Shown here one piece after another: positions 39,994 to 46,735 of a DNA stretch of 64,000 bases (within the stretch, counting starts at the first letter, position 1; every line of letters starts with the position of its first letter). Under the pieces are notes generated by a model, which saw only the letters and a list, made by a program, of their open reading frames with translations, was not told the DNA's origin and searched no databases. The position numbers and the translations under genes are program-made. The DNA is taken from assembly GCA_017302835.1 (NCBI GenBank), contig JAFLCC010000008.1, forward strand, positions 62,001 to 126,000, read 5' to 3'. The stretch is from Deltaproteobacteria bacterium. GTDB lineage: Bacteria; Bdellovibrionota; Bdellovibrionia; Bdellovibrionales; Bdellovibrionaceae.

Positions 39994-40650
39994 TTAGTAC
40001 TCACATTTCAAAGATTTTAAATCTATTGGTGAAATTTCTAATCTTAAAAAGGCAGCCGCCAGGGTTGGCCACATGACGGTAGGTTTGATGCTCATGTGTT
40101 TAAGACCTAAGACGTGCCCCAGTTCGTGAATTATTAGGCTTTCAAAATTTACTTGGACTGAGTTTTGTGGAGTTGTGGTATAAAACTCATAATCTTTTGC
40201 ATTTATTTTGATATCTGCTTCGGTAATAAGAGGTCCCAAATAGGTCAAAATAGTGAGTGCTTGTTGAGATTTATGATTCTCGCTCCAGTCTTTTGACCAG
40301 TAAACAGAGTTTACTTTATCACTGCTGGGTTTTAAAGAAGTGGATTGATTTGATTGTTGAAATTCAAAAAGTTTTTTTCCAGATGCCTTTTCCCATTTTT
40401 CACTGGCGGAGGAAATAATGGGTATCATGTCCCCCGGAATAGAGGAATCAAGGAAGAGTTTTATTGGCAAATTGGATTTCCAAGAAACCCGTTCACCAAA
40501 TTCATTTTGAATATAGCCGCAACCTTCTTGAGCTTGAGTGGCGAGATCTGTTTTAGATTCAGGACCTAAAACTAAATTTTTTTGGCAAGAAATCATGCAC
40601 AAAAAAATAGAAATATGAATTAATGAAAGTTTGATGGAATGTCGCCTCAT
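39994..40650 (-). CDS. Matrixin-like zinc metalloprotease lipoprotein
   Basis: This protein of about 218 residues has a lipoprotein signal with lipobox MISC, then a metzincin catalytic domain. The zinc site is HELGHVLGLKH (HExxHxxGxxH) and the Met-turn is PTVMWP, as in M10 matrixins. The compact domain (about 60-218) lacks a recognisable pro-domain. The ATG at 40650 starts the signal peptide; an upstream ATG at 40683 overlaps a TATAAT on this strand (40682-40687) that may be the -10. It is the first gene of a pair with the WPxxW-family protein. Confidence 0.8.
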   Translation of the reverse strand: MRRHSIKLSLIHISIFLCMISCQKNLVLGPESKTDLATQAQEGCGYIQNEFGERVSWKSNLPIKLFLDSSIPGDMIPIISSASEKWEKASGKKLFEFQQSNQSTSLKPSSDKVNSVYWSKDWSENHKSQQALTILTYLGPLITEADIKINAKDYEFYTTTPQNSVQVNFESLIIHELGHVLGLKHMSIKPTVMWPTLAAAFLRLEISPIDLKSLKCEY

Positions 40651-40787
40651 TTGTGATTTCTTATCGGTAAAATGATTCCACATTATAAGTCCGATTTTGT
40701 AAAAATTGTCATTGGAGTCAAAATATCCAAAATGATATTCTCGGCCTTTGACTAACTAGCTAATAATATTCATGTTTTGGAGTCCGT

Positions 40788-42149
40788 TTGGCCCAATCTG
40801 ATGGATCAGAAATTGCAGCAAAACTTTGCGAAAGAGAGGCCTGGTTCGTTTGGGCACCGTTTATTATGAAACTAGAGCTTAAAAGGTATAACAATATTGT
40901 TGCTTTTAAAATGAAAGGGAAGGCTGATACGGCTCTTGCTTTTCACGAGGATAATTTGGAAGTCGCTCAGATTTCTGATGAGCTGTTCTCTGAGTTAGAG
41001 AAAAAAAACTACGATGAGCTTGTTGCTTGGAGTCGCCGTAAAGAGGTTTTACCAGCTCACCCCAAGAATAATAAAATTAAAAGCGTGAATATCAATGTCA
41101 CCCAGATATGTAATTTGCACTGTCTCTATTGTGCCGCTGGTGGAGATGGATCTTATGGTGATCCAGTTAAAAATATAAGCATCGAAAAAACGCTGCCTCA
41201 GTTGAAATTTTTTTTAGACAAATTAGAAAAGGGGGAGCGTTTTCATATTAGTTTTTTAGGTGGAGAACCATTGCTTTATCCTGAAGGGATTTCACTTATT
41301 GCGGAGTATGCAAGTCAATACGCCGAAGCCAAAGCGCTAAATTTAACGATGAAAATAACGACAAATGGAACGCTTTTAAATGAATCCATAGTGTCCCTTT
41401 TAAAGAAGCATAAACCCACTCTAGTGATAAGTATGGATGGGCCCCCAGAAATAAATGATAAATTGCGGCCTCAAAAAAACTCTCATTCGACATCAATGCA
41501 AATGGTTTCAAATTTGGATAGATTATTTATGATAAAGTCAGAATTGGGTGTTTTAGGAGTTCATGCGGTTTTTTCTGAAAAAAATCTTGAAGTTGTGAAG
41601 GCCTATAAATATTTTTCAGAGTTTCCTTTTGATTTTTATGATTTTATGTTTTCGGTTTCTGAAAACAATCCAACTAGCAATCATGAATACATGGAACAAA
41701 TGGAGCAAGTGGCAGAGTTAGCTTGGGAAAAGGGATCTGAAAAAGAACTTAGAAAAATTTATATTTTTGATCATTATTTTGATCTTTTAGATAATCAAAA
41801 AAGATTAGAAAATCATTGTGGTTTAGGAAAAACACTTGCAGTGATCGACGCCAGAAATAGAATATACAACTGTCCTTGGACGATAGGTCAAAAACAAGAT
41901 CAGATAGGGCAAGATTTGCAAATCAATCAAGAAAAGTTAATTGAAAACTATTCAAATAGCTTGATAGACCGGAACCAGTGCCATCAGTGCTGGGCAAAAT
42001 ATCTTTGCGGTGGAGGGTGTTCTTACATTCACAAATCTACGTATTCTGACAAAGAAGTCGTAAAAAATGATCTTTTTTGTGAAAGAACAAGGTATGTTTC
42101 AGCATTAGCTATATATTATTTTTCAAAGAGCAGAGATTTAATGACTTGA
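40788..42149 (+). CDS. Radical SAM/SPASM enzyme, probable peptide maturase
   Basis: This 453-residue enzyme has the radical SAM cluster motif C108-x3-C112-x2-C115 (CNLHCLYC), a SAM-binding FLGGEPL segment and a complete SPASM region: a Cys pair (CGLGKT...YNC) and C398-x2-C401-x5-C407-x3-C411 followed by C431. The stretches CNLHCLYCAAGGDGSYG and CHQCWAKYLCGGGC resemble thioether-forming maturases (SCIFF/ranthipeptide and QhpD types). The first 85 residues could fold as a peptide-recognition domain. It starts at TTG with GGAG 5 nt upstream. Two tiny ORFs follow at once, which supports peptide modification. Anaerobic sulfatase maturation is the main alternative, but no sulfatase is nearby. Confidence 0.82.
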   Translation: MAQSDGSEIAAKLCEREAWFVWAPFIMKLELKRYNNIVAFKMKGKADTALAFHEDNLEVAQISDELFSELEKKNYDELVAWSRRKEVLPAHPKNNKIKSVNINVTQICNLHCLYCAAGGDGSYGDPVKNISIEKTLPQLKFFLDKLEKGERFHISFLGGEPLLYPEGISLIAEYASQYAEAKALNLTMKITTNGTLLNESIVSLLKKHKPTLVISMDGPPEINDKLRPQKNSHSTSMQMVSNLDRLFMIKSELGVLGVHAVFSEKNLEVVKAYKYFSEFPFDFYDFMFSVSENNPTSNHEYMEQMEQVAELAWEKGSEKELRKIYIFDHYFDLLDNQKRLENHCGLGKTLAVIDARNRIYNCPWTIGQKQDQIGQDLQINQEKLIENYSNSLIDRNQCHQCWAKYLCGGGCSYIHKSTYSDKEVVKNDLFCERTRYVSALAIYYFSKSRDLMT

Positions 42150-42159
42150 AGGTGGAATA

Positions 42160-42249
42160 ATGCTAGGATCACTTTGTAGGAATCGCTATGTAGAGACCGA
42201 GAAAGAGACAAAGATAGAAATCTTTCTGAAAAGCAGGGAAAATCTATGA
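42160..42249 (+). CDS. Tiny ORF (29 residues) between the radical SAM gene and the 64-residue peptide gene
   Basis: The ATG at 42160 is preceded by AAGGTGG overlapping the radical SAM stop, a good Shine-Dalgarno. The product starts MLGSLCRNRYVE, has a single Cys at position 6 and a charged helical remainder. Its TGA overlaps the ATG of the next ORF (ATGA at 42246-42249), which argues that it is really translated. It may be a peptide substrate of the upstream enzyme or a short leader peptide that couples translation. Too short for homology-based confidence. Confidence 0.45.
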   Translation: MLGSLCRNRYVETEKETKIEIFLKSRENL

Positions 42250-42440
42250 TAGAACGAATAATGGAACAATTAGCAGAACCAGAATCAAAACAAAAAGAGA
42301 AGAGCTTAAATTCTGATGTTTTATCTGATGTTATATCTGTTAGACATATCCATCAGGTTAAACCTCTTAAAGATCAGAGACACTCAAAGTCCAAAACTTT
42401 AAATGTTAAGGGCGGCGAGGGTTGTTTGCCAATAAGATAG
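42246..42440 (+). CDS. 64-residue peptide, candidate radical-SAM substrate (RiPP precursor-like)
   Basis: The product has an acidic/basic, Leu-rich N-terminal part resembling a leader (MIERIMEQLAEPE, LNSDVLSDVISV) and a Lys/His-rich middle. It ends VKGGEGCLPIR, with the only Cys at residue 60 just after a Gly-Gly. GGGA precedes the ATG, which overlaps the preceding tiny ORF. The sensor kinase starts 6 nt after its stop. A leader, Gly-Gly and single-Cys core after a SPASM enzyme is what a thioether-modified peptide would look like, but the peptide belongs to no family I recognise, and a non-RiPP small regulator is possible. Confidence 0.55.
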   Translation: MIERIMEQLAEPESKQKEKSLNSDVLSDVISVRHIHQVKPLKDQRHSKSKTLNVKGGEGCLPIR

Positions 42441-42446
42441 GTTCAG

Positions 42447-44312
42447 ATGGCTTTACCACCATCTCCAATTCCAAGAGAATCACAATGGGAAAAAATTAAG
42501 TTTTTATCAGTGATCTTGTTTAGGGTGGCTTTAGCTACAGGTCTGGCCCTTTTTATAGTGCAAATTAAGTTAGATTTTTTTGAATCTTATTTGTATGACA
42601 TGAGAGTTCGATGGAGTCCGTCCAGCAATCCTACTGGCGCTATTCAAATCGTTGAAGTGACGCCTGAAAGCGTCGAGTATTTTAAAGGAATTCCAAAAGC
42701 AGAACATCATAAGAAGGTCATGGACTTGCTTTACGAATACAAACCCAAAGCGGTAGTCTATGACATCGGTATTGATGAAATCTTGGGTTCAGATCAAAGT
42801 AAAAAAAGTTTTGCGAAATCTTTAGAAAAATTTAATCAATTTTTTGTGATCACAAATTTTCTTGAGATGCGCGGGGAAGAAGGGAAATTAAAACTTGCTG
42901 AACCTTATGAAAAAATAAAACTTTTTTCAGGTCCGAAAAGCTCTGATACGGCTAATTTTGCAAAAGATGGGGTGACTCGTCGGATGATGATTAACTATCA
43001 AGATCAAATGATGATACATCCTTTTCTTGCCAGTCAAATCAATCCAGATGTTTCTGATAAAAATAAAATAAAAGGATTGTTTTCTTTTTTGGAAACAGAT
43101 CAGGTGTATATCCGTTTCCGACCTACGGGAACCTATCCAAAAATCTCCTTTCATGAGGTGGCTAAAAGTTTAGTGTCGCCTTCCGTTTTTAAAGACAAGA
43201 TAGTGTTGATTGGTCATAATTTGGAACTATCTGAAAAAGATTACTTAATGACTCCCTATTCAAGATCGACAATTGCCATGACCACAACGGAAATGCACGC
43301 AAACATGATAGACACCTTAATATTGAATAATGCGATTACCAAGGCACCTCAATATATTAATATCTTTTCGACAATTTTAATTTCGATAATCACCGTTTAT
43401 ATAGTGTTTACGGTAAGTCCAGCTATGGGTTTGTTTATCATCGTCTTATTGTTTGGATTCTATTTAATATTTGCCTATTTTCTGTTTTGGCCTTTTGGGT
43501 ATTGGATTTCTATGGCGCACCAATTGTTGGCCATTTTTCTTTGCTATTATTTCTTTATTCCTTACCGTTTGATTATTGAAAATAGGCGTAGCTGGGAATA
43601 TTACCAAAAAAATAAACTATTACATCAAGTGGAAGAGTTAAAGACTAATTTTATTTCGATGATGTCCCATGATTTAAAAACGCCAATTGCCCGCATTAAG
43701 GGAATGACGGATGTTATTTTAAACGATGCTCATGCTGTGACAAATAATCAAAGAGACGCCTTGGATACGATCAGGACTTCCAGCGATGATTTATTGAGGT
43801 TTATAAATTCTATCTTAAATTATGCGAAGATTGAATCCCAAGGGGTCGACCTTCATTTGCAATCTAAAGATCCCAATGCGCTGATCTCAGAGGTCATAAA
43901 AAAACACGAGTTTTTAGCTAAAGTAAAAAAAATTCGTATACTGACAGAGCTGGAGCCTTTATTTCCTATAAAAATCGATCCCGAACTTATCAAACAAGTG
44001 TTTTCCAATTTAATAGAGAATGCCATTAAGTACTCACCTGATGAGACGACGATTACTATTAGCACTTCAGAAAATTCTGGATATGTGGTCGTAAAGATTT
44101 CAGATCAAGGGGGTGGTATCGCGGTCCAAGATTTGCCTAACTTGTTTATGAAGTTTTATAGAAGTGCTAATGCCAAGAGTTCGCCAGTAAAAGGGTCAGG
44201 ATTGGGCTTGTATCTGGCTAAATATTTTACAGAACTGCATAATGGTAAAATTTTTGTTGAATCTACCTATGGTAAAGGAACAGATTTTATAGTAGAATTA
44301 CCTCAAATTTAA
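42447..44312 (+). CDS. CHASE2-domain sensor histidine kinase
   Basis: This 621-residue membrane kinase has an N-terminal membrane segment (about 20-42), an extracytoplasmic CHASE2 sensor (about 45-290, opening with YDMRVRW), three further membrane segments (about 300-375), then HisKA (SHDLKTPIARIKG, phospho-His) and HATPase (NLIENAIKYS, ISDQGGGIA, GSGLGLYL). It lies 6 nt after the 64-residue peptide gene and 24 nt before a sigma-54 response regulator, so kinase and regulator are almost certainly partners. CHASE2 ligands are generally unknown. Confidence 0.9.
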   Translation: MALPPSPIPRESQWEKIKFLSVILFRVALATGLALFIVQIKLDFFESYLYDMRVRWSPSSNPTGAIQIVEVTPESVEYFKGIPKAEHHKKVMDLLYEYKPKAVVYDIGIDEILGSDQSKKSFAKSLEKFNQFFVITNFLEMRGEEGKLKLAEPYEKIKLFSGPKSSDTANFAKDGVTRRMMINYQDQMMIHPFLASQINPDVSDKNKIKGLFSFLETDQVYIRFRPTGTYPKISFHEVAKSLVSPSVFKDKIVLIGHNLELSEKDYLMTPYSRSTIAMTTTEMHANMIDTLILNNAITKAPQYINIFSTILISIITVYIVFTVSPAMGLFIIVLLFGFYLIFAYFLFWPFGYWISMAHQLLAIFLCYYFFIPYRLIIENRRSWEYYQKNKLLHQVEELKTNFISMMSHDLKTPIARIKGMTDVILNDAHAVTNNQRDALDTIRTSSDDLLRFINSILNYAKIESQGVDLHLQSKDPNALISEVIKKHEFLAKVKKIRILTELEPLFPIKIDPELIKQVFSNLIENAIKYSPDETTITISTSENSGYVVVKISDQGGGIAVQDLPNLFMKFYRSANAKSSPVKGSGLGLYLAKYFTELHNGKIFVESTYGKGTDFIVELPQI

Positions 44313-44336: not shown

Positions 44337-45854
44337 ATGTTTAAGATTTTAGTCGTTGATGATGACGCGGGATTAAGACTATCAATCAAATCTGCCTTTT
44401 CTGGTTATGAAAAATTTGATGTTTATGAAGCTTTCGATGGTATCAATGCCATGGAAAAAATTAAATCTCCAGGATCCAAATTCGACATCGTGATTTTGGA
44501 CGTAGATATGCCTCGGCTCAATGGTCTTGAAACACTGAAGCAGATAAAAGAGTTTGATCCAGGGATTATAGTGCTCATGTTAACAGCCCATGCGACATTG
44601 CATGACGCTGTTAACGCAGTTAAAGATGGCGCTTATAACTACCTCTCTAAACCGGTCTCTAGTGAAGAAATATTAGCTTTAATTGAAAAAGCGATGCAAG
44701 CACACTCTATGATATCAAATATTGCAGCTAGCTCACCCGTGTTGGTCGAAGCTGGGAGAAAAATAATTGGTAATACCACGCAAATGCAAAAAGTGTTTAA
44801 TATTATACACAAGTTGGCCAAAGTGGATACTCCGGTTTTAATTAGGGGAGCTAGTGGTACAGGCAAAGAATTAGTAGCGAAGGCCATTCACTTTAATTCT
44901 GTGAGAAAAGATGAGAAATTTGTTGCTATAAATTGCTCAGCTATACCTGAAAACTTATTTGAATCAGAACTTTTTGGACATGAAAAAGGATCTTTTACAG
45001 GAGCTAGTGAAAGAAAAATTGGGAAATTTCAATATGCAGATGGTGGAACTTTATTTTTAGATGAGATTGGAGATATGCCTCAACTGATGCAGGTAAAAAT
45101 ACTACGAGTTTTGCAGGAAAAATTATTTACACCAGTGGGTTCTAATCGAGAAATTCAATCCAATGTCAGAATTATTGCGGCTACAAATCGGCCACTTGAG
45201 GAAATGATTAAGATAGGCTCTTTCAGAGAAGATTTATTTTACAGGCTGAATGTGGTTCCTATATTTTTACCAGCATTATGTGATCGCAAAGCCGATATCG
45301 AAAGGTTGATTCAAATTTTTGTAAAAAAATTCAATGAGGTCCATAAAAAGAAAATAACCGGTGTGACTGCCGATGCCATGAATATATTAAAGCGTTACTC
45401 TTGGCCTGGAAATATCCGCGAACTTGAGAATGTAATCGAACATTCTTTTGTATTAGAGACTGGAACGATCATTTCAATGTCTTCTTTACCTGAAAGCTTA
45501 TTGGCCGCAGTGGGAGTGAATCTATTTGACCTAGATACGCTAAGCCAGTCTTCACAACTTGGTCCTGTATTTATTGATTCAGGAAGTGATATAGAAACTG
45601 AGGATGCGAATTCTGATTTAGATACTGATGGAGATTCTGAATTTGATGATTCAGGTATGAAGGTTACTTTTAACGGAGACTTGGATTTTAATGTTCAAAA
45701 AGAAGCCTTTGAAAAGGAATTTATCATTAAGGCTCTCAAAACTTTTAAAGGCAGAATAAATCAAACGGCCCTGCATGCGAATATACCTAAAAAAACTCTT
45801 CTCAGAAAAATTGAAAAATATGGTATCAATGCAAAGGACTATTTTGACCAATAA
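44337..45854 (+). CDS. NtrC-family sigma-54 response regulator
   Basis: This 505-residue regulator has a receiver domain (phospho-Asp in VILDVDMPRLNG, about residue 53), an AAA+ sigma-54 interaction domain (GASGTGKELVA Walker A, the loop motif GSFTGA, LFLDEIGDMP Walker B, NIRELENV) and a C-terminal Fis-type HTH (about 465-505). An acidic Asp/Ser-rich insert (about 415-445) separates the last two. AAAAGGAG lies 6 nt before the ATG. It should activate sigma-54 promoters in response to the adjacent CHASE2 kinase. I found no clear -24/-12 promoter in front of the locus. Confidence 0.93.
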   Translation: MFKILVVDDDAGLRLSIKSAFSGYEKFDVYEAFDGINAMEKIKSPGSKFDIVILDVDMPRLNGLETLKQIKEFDPGIIVLMLTAHATLHDAVNAVKDGAYNYLSKPVSSEEILALIEKAMQAHSMISNIAASSPVLVEAGRKIIGNTTQMQKVFNIIHKLAKVDTPVLIRGASGTGKELVAKAIHFNSVRKDEKFVAINCSAIPENLFESELFGHEKGSFTGASERKIGKFQYADGGTLFLDEIGDMPQLMQVKILRVLQEKLFTPVGSNREIQSNVRIIAATNRPLEEMIKIGSFREDLFYRLNVVPIFLPALCDRKADIERLIQIFVKKFNEVHKKKITGVTADAMNILKRYSWPGNIRELENVIEHSFVLETGTIISMSSLPESLLAAVGVNLFDLDTLSQSSQLGPVFIDSGSDIETEDANSDLDTDGDSEFDDSGMKVTFNGDLDFNVQKEAFEKEFIIKALKTFKGRINQTALHANIPKKTLLRKIEKYGINAKDYFDQ

Positions 45855-46060: not shown

Positions 46061-46735
46061 ATGGCAATGAATCCGCTACCCCCACAGGCTTACACAAAAG
46101 ACTCTCTTTTGAAGGCATATTCTTGGTTGCAAAATCAAGAATCTTCAATCAAGGAAATGGCTACAACGCCTGATATTTTAGTAAGTTTGTTTTTAAAGGC
46201 CACTCGGGATGGGGACAGTGTTCTGGAACGTCCGTCTATTCAAAACTTTAAGCATGAGCTCAAACAATTGGCTGGTATGATGGGCGAGTTTGATAAAGAG
46301 GTCATTGAAGAAAAAATCCAGAACCAAAATCTCCAGAAGCAAAATATATTTAATGACAAACTTAAAAGCCCATCTCTTGAAAGTGATAAGTTAGGTGGTA
46401 ATACTTTAGGTGGAGATAAATTGGCGGGGCTTTCAACAAATTTTGATTTCACTCTGCCTTTGAACGGAAATTCATTGGATAGTCGTTCTCTAGAAAATCG
46501 ACCCATAGAAAATCGTTCTCAAGAAAGTAATTCTGCAGAAAACAATCCAGAGAAGCTATCTAAAACTCATCATGAAGTTTTAAAAAAAGGGGATTGTTCT
46601 TTGCTTGAAAATTTAGATGCAAAGTCTTTGATGTTAATTTCAGAAGTTAAAACTCAGTTAAATCTTAGTTCTGATTTGGAATCCTTAAAGCTTTTAATTC
46701 AAGCGGGCTATAATAAAACTAAAAAATTATTTTAG
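46061..46735 (+). CDS. Hypothetical cytoplasmic protein upstream of ileS, with low-complexity middle
   Basis: This 224-residue protein has a helical N-terminal part (about 10-90), a Gly/Asn/Ser-rich middle with short near-repeats (LGGNTLGGDKLAG, then a run of five-residue units of the SLENR type around 130-160) and a helical C-terminus rich in Leu/Lys. No signal peptide or membrane segment. The start is ATG at 46061 or 46067; neither has a strong Shine-Dalgarno. No family recognised. Confidence 0.55.
   Translation: MAMNPLPPQAYTKDSLLKAYSWLQNQESSIKEMATTPDILVSLFLKATRDGDSVLERPSIQNFKHELKQLAGMMGEFDKEVIEEKIQNQNLQKQNIFNDKLKSPSLESDKLGGNTLGGDKLAGLSTNFDFTLPLNGNSLDSRSLENRPIENRSQESNSAENNPEKLSKTHHEVLKKGDCSLLENLDAKSLMLISEVKTQLNLSSDLESLKLLIQAGYNKTKKLF

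Follow-up and report, generated by a model that had tools for sequence, protein, structure and literature searches.

Nisin-type autoinduction (NisRK) and other peptide-kinase loops bring together a peptide, a modifying enzyme, a sensor kinase and a regulator in one operon. The locus described here joins the same four kinds of gene, although it has radical SAM rather than lanthionine chemistry, a CHASE2 kinase and NtrC/sigma-54 control, and it comes from a Gram-negative predator and is without exporter, protease and immunity genes. A peptide-modifying radical SAM/SPASM enzyme beside a small Cys-bearing precursor is also the arrangement of CteB/CteA and other SCIFF ranthipeptides, which are widely kept and, according to excerpts from two reports, are listed with a quorum-sensing role (PMC8326336, PMC8102284). 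Here, however, the precursors have one Cys (in 77 of 80 homologues) where the SCIFFs have six, with the Cys-x-Pro at the very end, and the enzyme is 20–22% identical and has Pro, Asn, Gln or Val after the first SPASM-region Cys where CteB has His. PapB, of the PapB/freyrasin ranthipeptides, crosslinks Cys to Asp or Glu, and an RRE domain is the expected binding site of the leader (excerpt of PMC9413430). Its NCBIfam model (NF047865) gives the best score with our enzyme (E 8e-50), but this is half of the cut-off (169.9 versus 340) and the precursors are without CX3D/E motifs; the residue at +4 from the Cys in the 60 family peptides is Gly in 23, Arg in 21, Lys in seven, Asn in three and Glu in two, with Asp in none listed. 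In the NxxC RaS-RiPPs of streptococci, as excerpted sources describe them, a single thioether links one Cys to a residue close by, with production tied to a peptide-sensing regulator (PMC8326336, PMC13361665). The single Cys, the thioether (here putative) and the peptide-linked regulation (here proposed) are common ground, but those systems are under cytoplasmic Rgg/SHP control whereas this operon has a co-encoded membrane kinase, and there is no conserved Asn. Finally, anaerobic sulfatase maturases share the fold of our enzyme (Z of about 30) and a CxPxR core is found in part of the peptide family, although our enzyme is without Asp277, has an extra N-terminal domain, and would act on a peptide of 27–64 residues rather than a sulfatase. 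A literature search, with most subscription journals outside it, found no paper joining CHASE2, a histidine kinase, radical SAM and a peptide, and none on ChlA/ChlB or on D277 of anSME; matches in the Bdellovibrio literature for CHASE2 or radical SAM were judged from listings to be incidental.

The window, which is the whole stretch of 64,000 nucleotides that was analysed, lies on a contig (C8) of a 3.63 Mb genome that is 99.98% complete. Four genes form an operon-like run on the plus strand: the radical SAM/SPASM peptide maturase (40866–42149; PF04055, E 2.6e-17), the 64-residue peptide ORF (42246–42440), a CHASE2-domain membrane histidine kinase (42447–44312; CHASE2, 2.2e-31; HisKA, 7.9e-16; HATPase_c, 1.8e-27), and an NtrC-type response regulator with a receiver, a sigma-54 AAA+ domain and a Fis-type HTH (44337–45854; PF00072, 3.3e-26; PF00158, 7.3e-72; PF02954, 6.9e-06). 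The order of spacer, kinase and regulator is kept in the named loci as well. The ORF is as the original prediction described it, with a C-terminus of NVKGGEGCLPIR, a sole Cys at residue 60, and a stop codon 6 nt upstream of the kinase ATG at 42447; it is conserved and looks like the precursor gene of a new radical-SAM RiPP family. Its start codon is uncertain, the candidates being an ATG at 42246 with a weak GGGA upstream and another ATG at 42261. Residues 1 to about 30 align with no counterpart in most homologues, and the longer N-terminus and the 6-base gap are local traits. A leader block, HIHQVKP (residues 34–40; 42345–42365, plus strand), is the counterpart of HIKK[IV]KP in the 56-row alignment of the peptides (A3), and corresponds to a strand in a fused model of a relative (see below). 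The core, GGEGCLPIR, is at residues 56–64 (42411–42437, plus strand), and this alignment shows no variation at Cys60 and Pro62 and at least 90% conservation at Pro40.

The enzyme gene is present, as a single copy, in 60 of the 66 genomes of the family. We read the locus in all 60 (in one it is split over two contigs), and each has a short peptide ORF between the enzyme and the CHASE2 kinase. A survey of 140 genomes of the order places the enzyme in 81, comprising the 60 above, 13 of family f10 and eight of family f4. Twenty of the 21 sister-family loci were read (G093 was left out), and at every one the enzyme has a neighbouring peptide that begins with an HIKK-like stretch and carries a Cys close to its end. 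The prediction that pairs the peptide, as a conserved partner, with the radical SAM enzyme next to it is thus borne out, with a dedicated short precursor adjoining the enzyme in 80 of the 80 enzyme-bearing genomes read. In the family, the peptides follow the plan M-x(n)-HIKK[IV]KP-linker-[G/D]C-x-P-tail; lengths among the homologues range from 27 to 64 residues, and the core is short and strongly conserved between genera (GCIPVR or GCLPIR). The Cys tail, on whose conservation the original prediction depended, is retained: among the 60 family and 20 sister-family peptides the Cys is present in all 80, Cys-x-Pro in 73, and only a single Cys in 77, and a single Cys near the C-terminus is the most conserved feature of the peptide. 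The tails of f10 have C-x-P at 12 of the 12 loci read, and those of f4 have C-x-P in one, C-P-E in six, and C-E-I in one of eight. The f4 loci with Cys-Pro-Glu (L111 and L118–L122) keep the HIKK start and represent a sub-lineage with a different core.

A profile of the peptide matches 60 of the 140 genomes of the order, every match being at this locus with the enzyme present, and gives no matches in the 59 enzyme-free genomes; it misses 21 enzyme-bearing genomes, mostly of f10 and f4, where the peptides were found by reading. The peptide is single-copy in 59 of the 60 matched genomes. The one genome with two matches (L063, G040:C37) has two tandem precursors between enzyme and kinase, ending in CIPIG and CIPSGLPNSSSN. 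Of the 14 matches that our first peptide search gave outside the window's own genome, six (L007, L009, L012–L015) fall within frames that are long or broken and unrelated; for L007 and L009 this comes from reading the locus, and for L012–L015 only from the open frame, the stops and the position. In a sample of 290 genomes of the phylum the enzyme is in 58, all within the order, with none outside it at E 1e-35. Named records with the enzyme include B. bacteriovorus strain kdesi and Bdellovibrio sp. qaytius. Among the matches listed in named genomes, the relatives of the enzyme are of the Bdellovibrionota type down to 29% identity and then, at 25–30%, belong to other phyla; of the other-phyla relatives that were scanned, ten have QhpD, PapB or nif11 as best models, and the 18 that were read, again among the matches listed, have no convincing CxP peptide alongside. 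A Bdellovibrio-type locus is also present in a metagenome bin titled Streptomyces griseus (L137, CALQIT020000002.1), a title that is probably wrong.

The enzyme ORF can be opened from a TTG at 40788, and the ATG at 40866 fits the homologues. In an AlphaFold2 model (pLDDT 92.6) the N-terminal domain (40869–41036, plus strand) has four strands and two helices and is presumed to be leader-binding; A37 is 100% and W58 98% conserved, and the domain aligns with CteB from model residue 12. The Cys residues of the CxxxCxxC motif (85, 89 and 92) and those of the SPASM region (321, 339, 375, 378, 384, 388 and 408) are invariant in 75 of 75 homologues. CteB (5wgg) is the nearest solved structure, with Z 34.9 over 390 residues, nearly the full length, and E 1e-50 by sequence; the sulfatase maturase anSMEcpe matches at E 4e-25 by sequence (4k37) and Z 30.4 by structure (4k38). 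The best NCBIfam models are PapB, nif11, SCIFF and QhpD, all at half of the cut-off or less (e.g. SCIFF TIGR03974, E 8e-40, 137.1 versus 425 bits; QhpD TIGR03906, E 2e-35, 122.1 versus 453), and the enzyme passes no NCBIfam cut-off. Directly after the first SPASM-region Cys, 54 of the 75 enzymes have Pro, nine Asn, eight Gln and four Val, and Trp is next in 69; in alignments this position is His in CteB and Asp277 in anSMEcpe, and it is His in the readable QhpD/PapB-like relatives. By similarity, the enzyme belongs to the peptide-thioether branch, but with an active-site neighbourhood of its own that appears to fit neither the thioether nor the sulfatase type; its reaction should not be presumed.

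That the peptide is the substrate of this enzyme seems very probable, and we strongly infer that the neighbouring enzyme binds the leader block, HIKK[IV]KP, through its N-terminal domain. At nine loci the enzyme and peptide are in one frame with a single stop between them, and with the stop read as Gln the chain was folded with 53 rows. The fused AlphaFold2 model of L061 has a strand at 437–440, inside the leader block (H436–P442, block pLDDT of about 83), and a disordered core (pLDDT 38). The strand was called by DSSP, which requires a bonded partner that the output does not name, and the model may lend weak support to docking on the N-terminal domain.

A sigma-54-like -24/-12 element, TGGATCAGAAATTGCA (40802–40817, plus strand), matching nine of 11 consensus positions, lies 48 nt before the enzyme ATG. 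Elements scoring at least 9 are present within 150 nt upstream of the enzyme at 43 of 74 loci, compared with 42 of 7,400 shuffles (0.6%) and none of 74 within-gene windows. GG and TTGC are present in all 43, the search itself having required GG and GC. The other 31 loci, which include four of the window's own genus, lack a site with this score, and several have weaker ones. No such site is directly upstream of the kinase at any of 79 loci with the enzyme, and one is directly before it in six of 20 enzyme-free loci; it is as if the enzyme and peptide had been placed between promoter and kinase, inside a regulator-controlled operon. The combination of an NtrC-type regulator, a sigma-54-like element at the start and an rpoN gene in the window's genome suggests that the operon probably activates itself, and we consider it fairly likely that all four genes would be transcribed from a sigma-54 promoter activated by their own regulator, creating positive feedback. 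In a search for an upstream activator site the palindromes and words differ among genera. Palindromes TGGTGTCAAAGTGACACTA and AGAGGTGTCAACCTGACACCTCT at L118 and L122 (some 110 and 56 nt ahead of the sigma-54-like site) and at L117 are possible regulator binding sites.

Downstream of these four genes, 34 of 54 loci have one for a 224-aa protein of unknown family and 27 have one for an MBL-fold protein, while ileS and a PBP-like gene are each found at 25; the last three names are our own reading of the sequences. The 224-aa protein is at 46061–46735 in the window, downstream of the regulator, and has no credible Pfam match. Divergent from the enzyme is a gene (39994–40683, minus strand) for a Matrixin-like metallopeptidase (PF00413, E 1.8e-9), and a like gene is at only six of 54 loci. 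No exporter, protease or immunity gene is conserved in the operon neighbourhood. The flanking genes are also partly syntenic, so gene order alone is no proof of joint function; the exact match between genomes with the peptide and genomes with the enzyme is independent of gene order.

The reading that we favor by a small measure is that the peptide is a RiPP precursor, modified by the enzyme within a self-activating operon, and that it feeds the kinase. Export of the peptide would be part of this reading; against it stand a CHASE2 domain expected outside the cytoplasm and an operon with no accompanying exporter or protease. A trimmed or modified peptide might enter the feedback loop by modulating the neighbouring CHASE2 kinase, a step that we consider a little less probable than its opposite; more tentatively still, the Cys-x-Pro peptide could serve Bdellovibrio-type predators as a pheromone or an internal signal that a CHASE2 kinase reads and an NtrC/sigma-54 loop amplifies. 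The kinase is in 114 of the 140 genomes of the order compared with 81 for the enzyme, and among some 34 enzyme-free loci, the 20 that were read contain no like peptide, from which it follows that the kinase can work without the peptide; the kinase and regulator either predate the peptide or persist better than it does. On a tree of 90 kinases the presence of the enzyme involves seven changes, at least four of them forced by supported branches, and is clustered, yet with several losses or gains. Evolutionary rates of the sensor domain are no higher in lineages that lack the enzyme (Mann-Whitney p 0.25).

These observations are also compatible with the modified peptide being the output, an effector, either secreted or intracellular, that might act for example on prey, on siblings or on the envelope of the producing cell, and whose production the kinase and regulator switch on upon another cue. 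The persistence of the kinase and regulator where enzyme and peptide are missing favors such an effector, as does a sensor domain without a detectable signature of the peptide, and many of the enzyme-free loci adjoin cell-wall synthesis genes, which suggests a separate cue. However, the operon has no conserved immunity gene, exporter or protease, and the core is short, conserved across genera and single-copy in 59 of 60 genomes, unlike diversifying antimicrobial peptides. We regard an effector role as possible but doubtful.

Within the C-terminal Cys-x-Pro core, the invariant Cys is the likely site of modification, and of the products that could be formed there a thioether to a nearby residue is the most likely, with about an even chance of being correct. 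By analogy this chemistry is plausible because the nearest families of the enzyme (PapB, SCIFF and QhpD) make Cys thioethers and its nearest structure is CteB. There is no fixed reactive residue next to the Cys at any position in the peptide homologues, and a thioether acceptor is not conserved. The Cys could instead be oxidised to C-alpha-formylglycine, as by anaerobic sulfatase maturases, giving a peptide aldehyde. The sulfatase signature is C-x-P-x-R, and the window core, CLPIR, fits it; CxP is in 73 of 80 peptides and CxPxR in 21 of the 60 from the family, and the enzyme aligns with anSMEcpe (4k37, 4k38) and with TIGR03942. But the TIGR03942 score is far below the cut-off (88.7 versus 349.45; E 4e-25), the Arg of CxPxR is not conserved (0 of 20 outside the family), and the f4 sub-lineage has CPE tails (six of eight). 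Moreover, the position of Asp277, which we take to be the catalytic residue of anSME, is Pro, Asn, Gln or Val in 75 of 75 enzymes and never Asp, and formylglycine formation seems improbable.

A Gly-Gly preceding the Cys tail had suggested to the original prediction a peptide cut after the double Gly by a C39-type exporter. The Gly-Gly is indeed present here, with KGGEGC in the window's genus, and a C39-domain protein is encoded elsewhere in the window's genome, but the motif is not conserved across the family, being within six residues of the Cys in only 18 of 60 peptides. Cleavage after it would leave only seven residues, the operon has no exporter, and a C39 domain is found in 25 of 66 family genomes (the enzyme is in 60 of 66); the ORFs that carry this domain, of 154–481 aa, are too short for a peptidase-ABC exporter. 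We consider C39 processing very improbable. The C39 peptidase-domain proteins themselves (G000:C4:139158-139547 and relatives) are not tied to the peptide. The basis of the peptide finding is not the Gly-Gly but the family-wide leader block and the Cys-x-Pro core tied to one enzyme.

The peptide ORF is real and not a chance occurrence. In 59 testable spacers between enzyme and kinase we looked for ORFs of 25 codons or more whose last residue is no more than 14 beyond a C-x-P, and found one in 58, compared with 25 of 5,900 dinucleotide shuffles and none of 59 antisense spacers. The sole miss is L101, where the peptide overlaps the kinase start and extends just beyond the tested stretch. When a loose leader motif is added to the CxP tail, 54 of 59 spacers qualify versus none of the 5,900 shuffles; four of the ORFs with a CxP tail lack the motif. 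Among 25 pairs of close homologues, which are not independent, pN/pS is 0.11–0.65 in all 23 for which it is defined, and being below 1 in each of these it indicates that the peptide reading frame is under purifying selection. That the spacer is instead a regulatory RNA or noise with an untranslated ORF is scarcely credible, given that the purifying selection acts on protein, that the start region is conserved with Shine-Dalgarno-like words, and that the conservation is frame-specific in the shuffle and antisense comparisons. The original prediction knew of no family match, and neither Pfam nor NCBIfam has a model for the 56 peptides of A3; the best weak match (DUF5323, E 0.0034, two of 56) and others like it look like chance.

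If this interpretation is true, nearly all Bdellovibrionaceae, including B. bacteriovorus, would possess a dedicated radical-SAM RiPP whose operon includes a sensor kinase of its own, and the family would add a new precursor and maturase pair with a minimal one-Cys substrate, as well as a role for the CHASE2 domain. It would also be a candidate for peptide signalling in predatory bacteria. The enzyme-peptide-kinase arrangement may be an unrecognised peptide signalling circuit, and if the signal reading is true it would constitute a RiPP signalling system of a Gram-negative predator, one that would have gone unseen because a gene of 27–64 codons has no family model. The complete unit comprises four genes, and the organism is open to genetic work in the laboratory.
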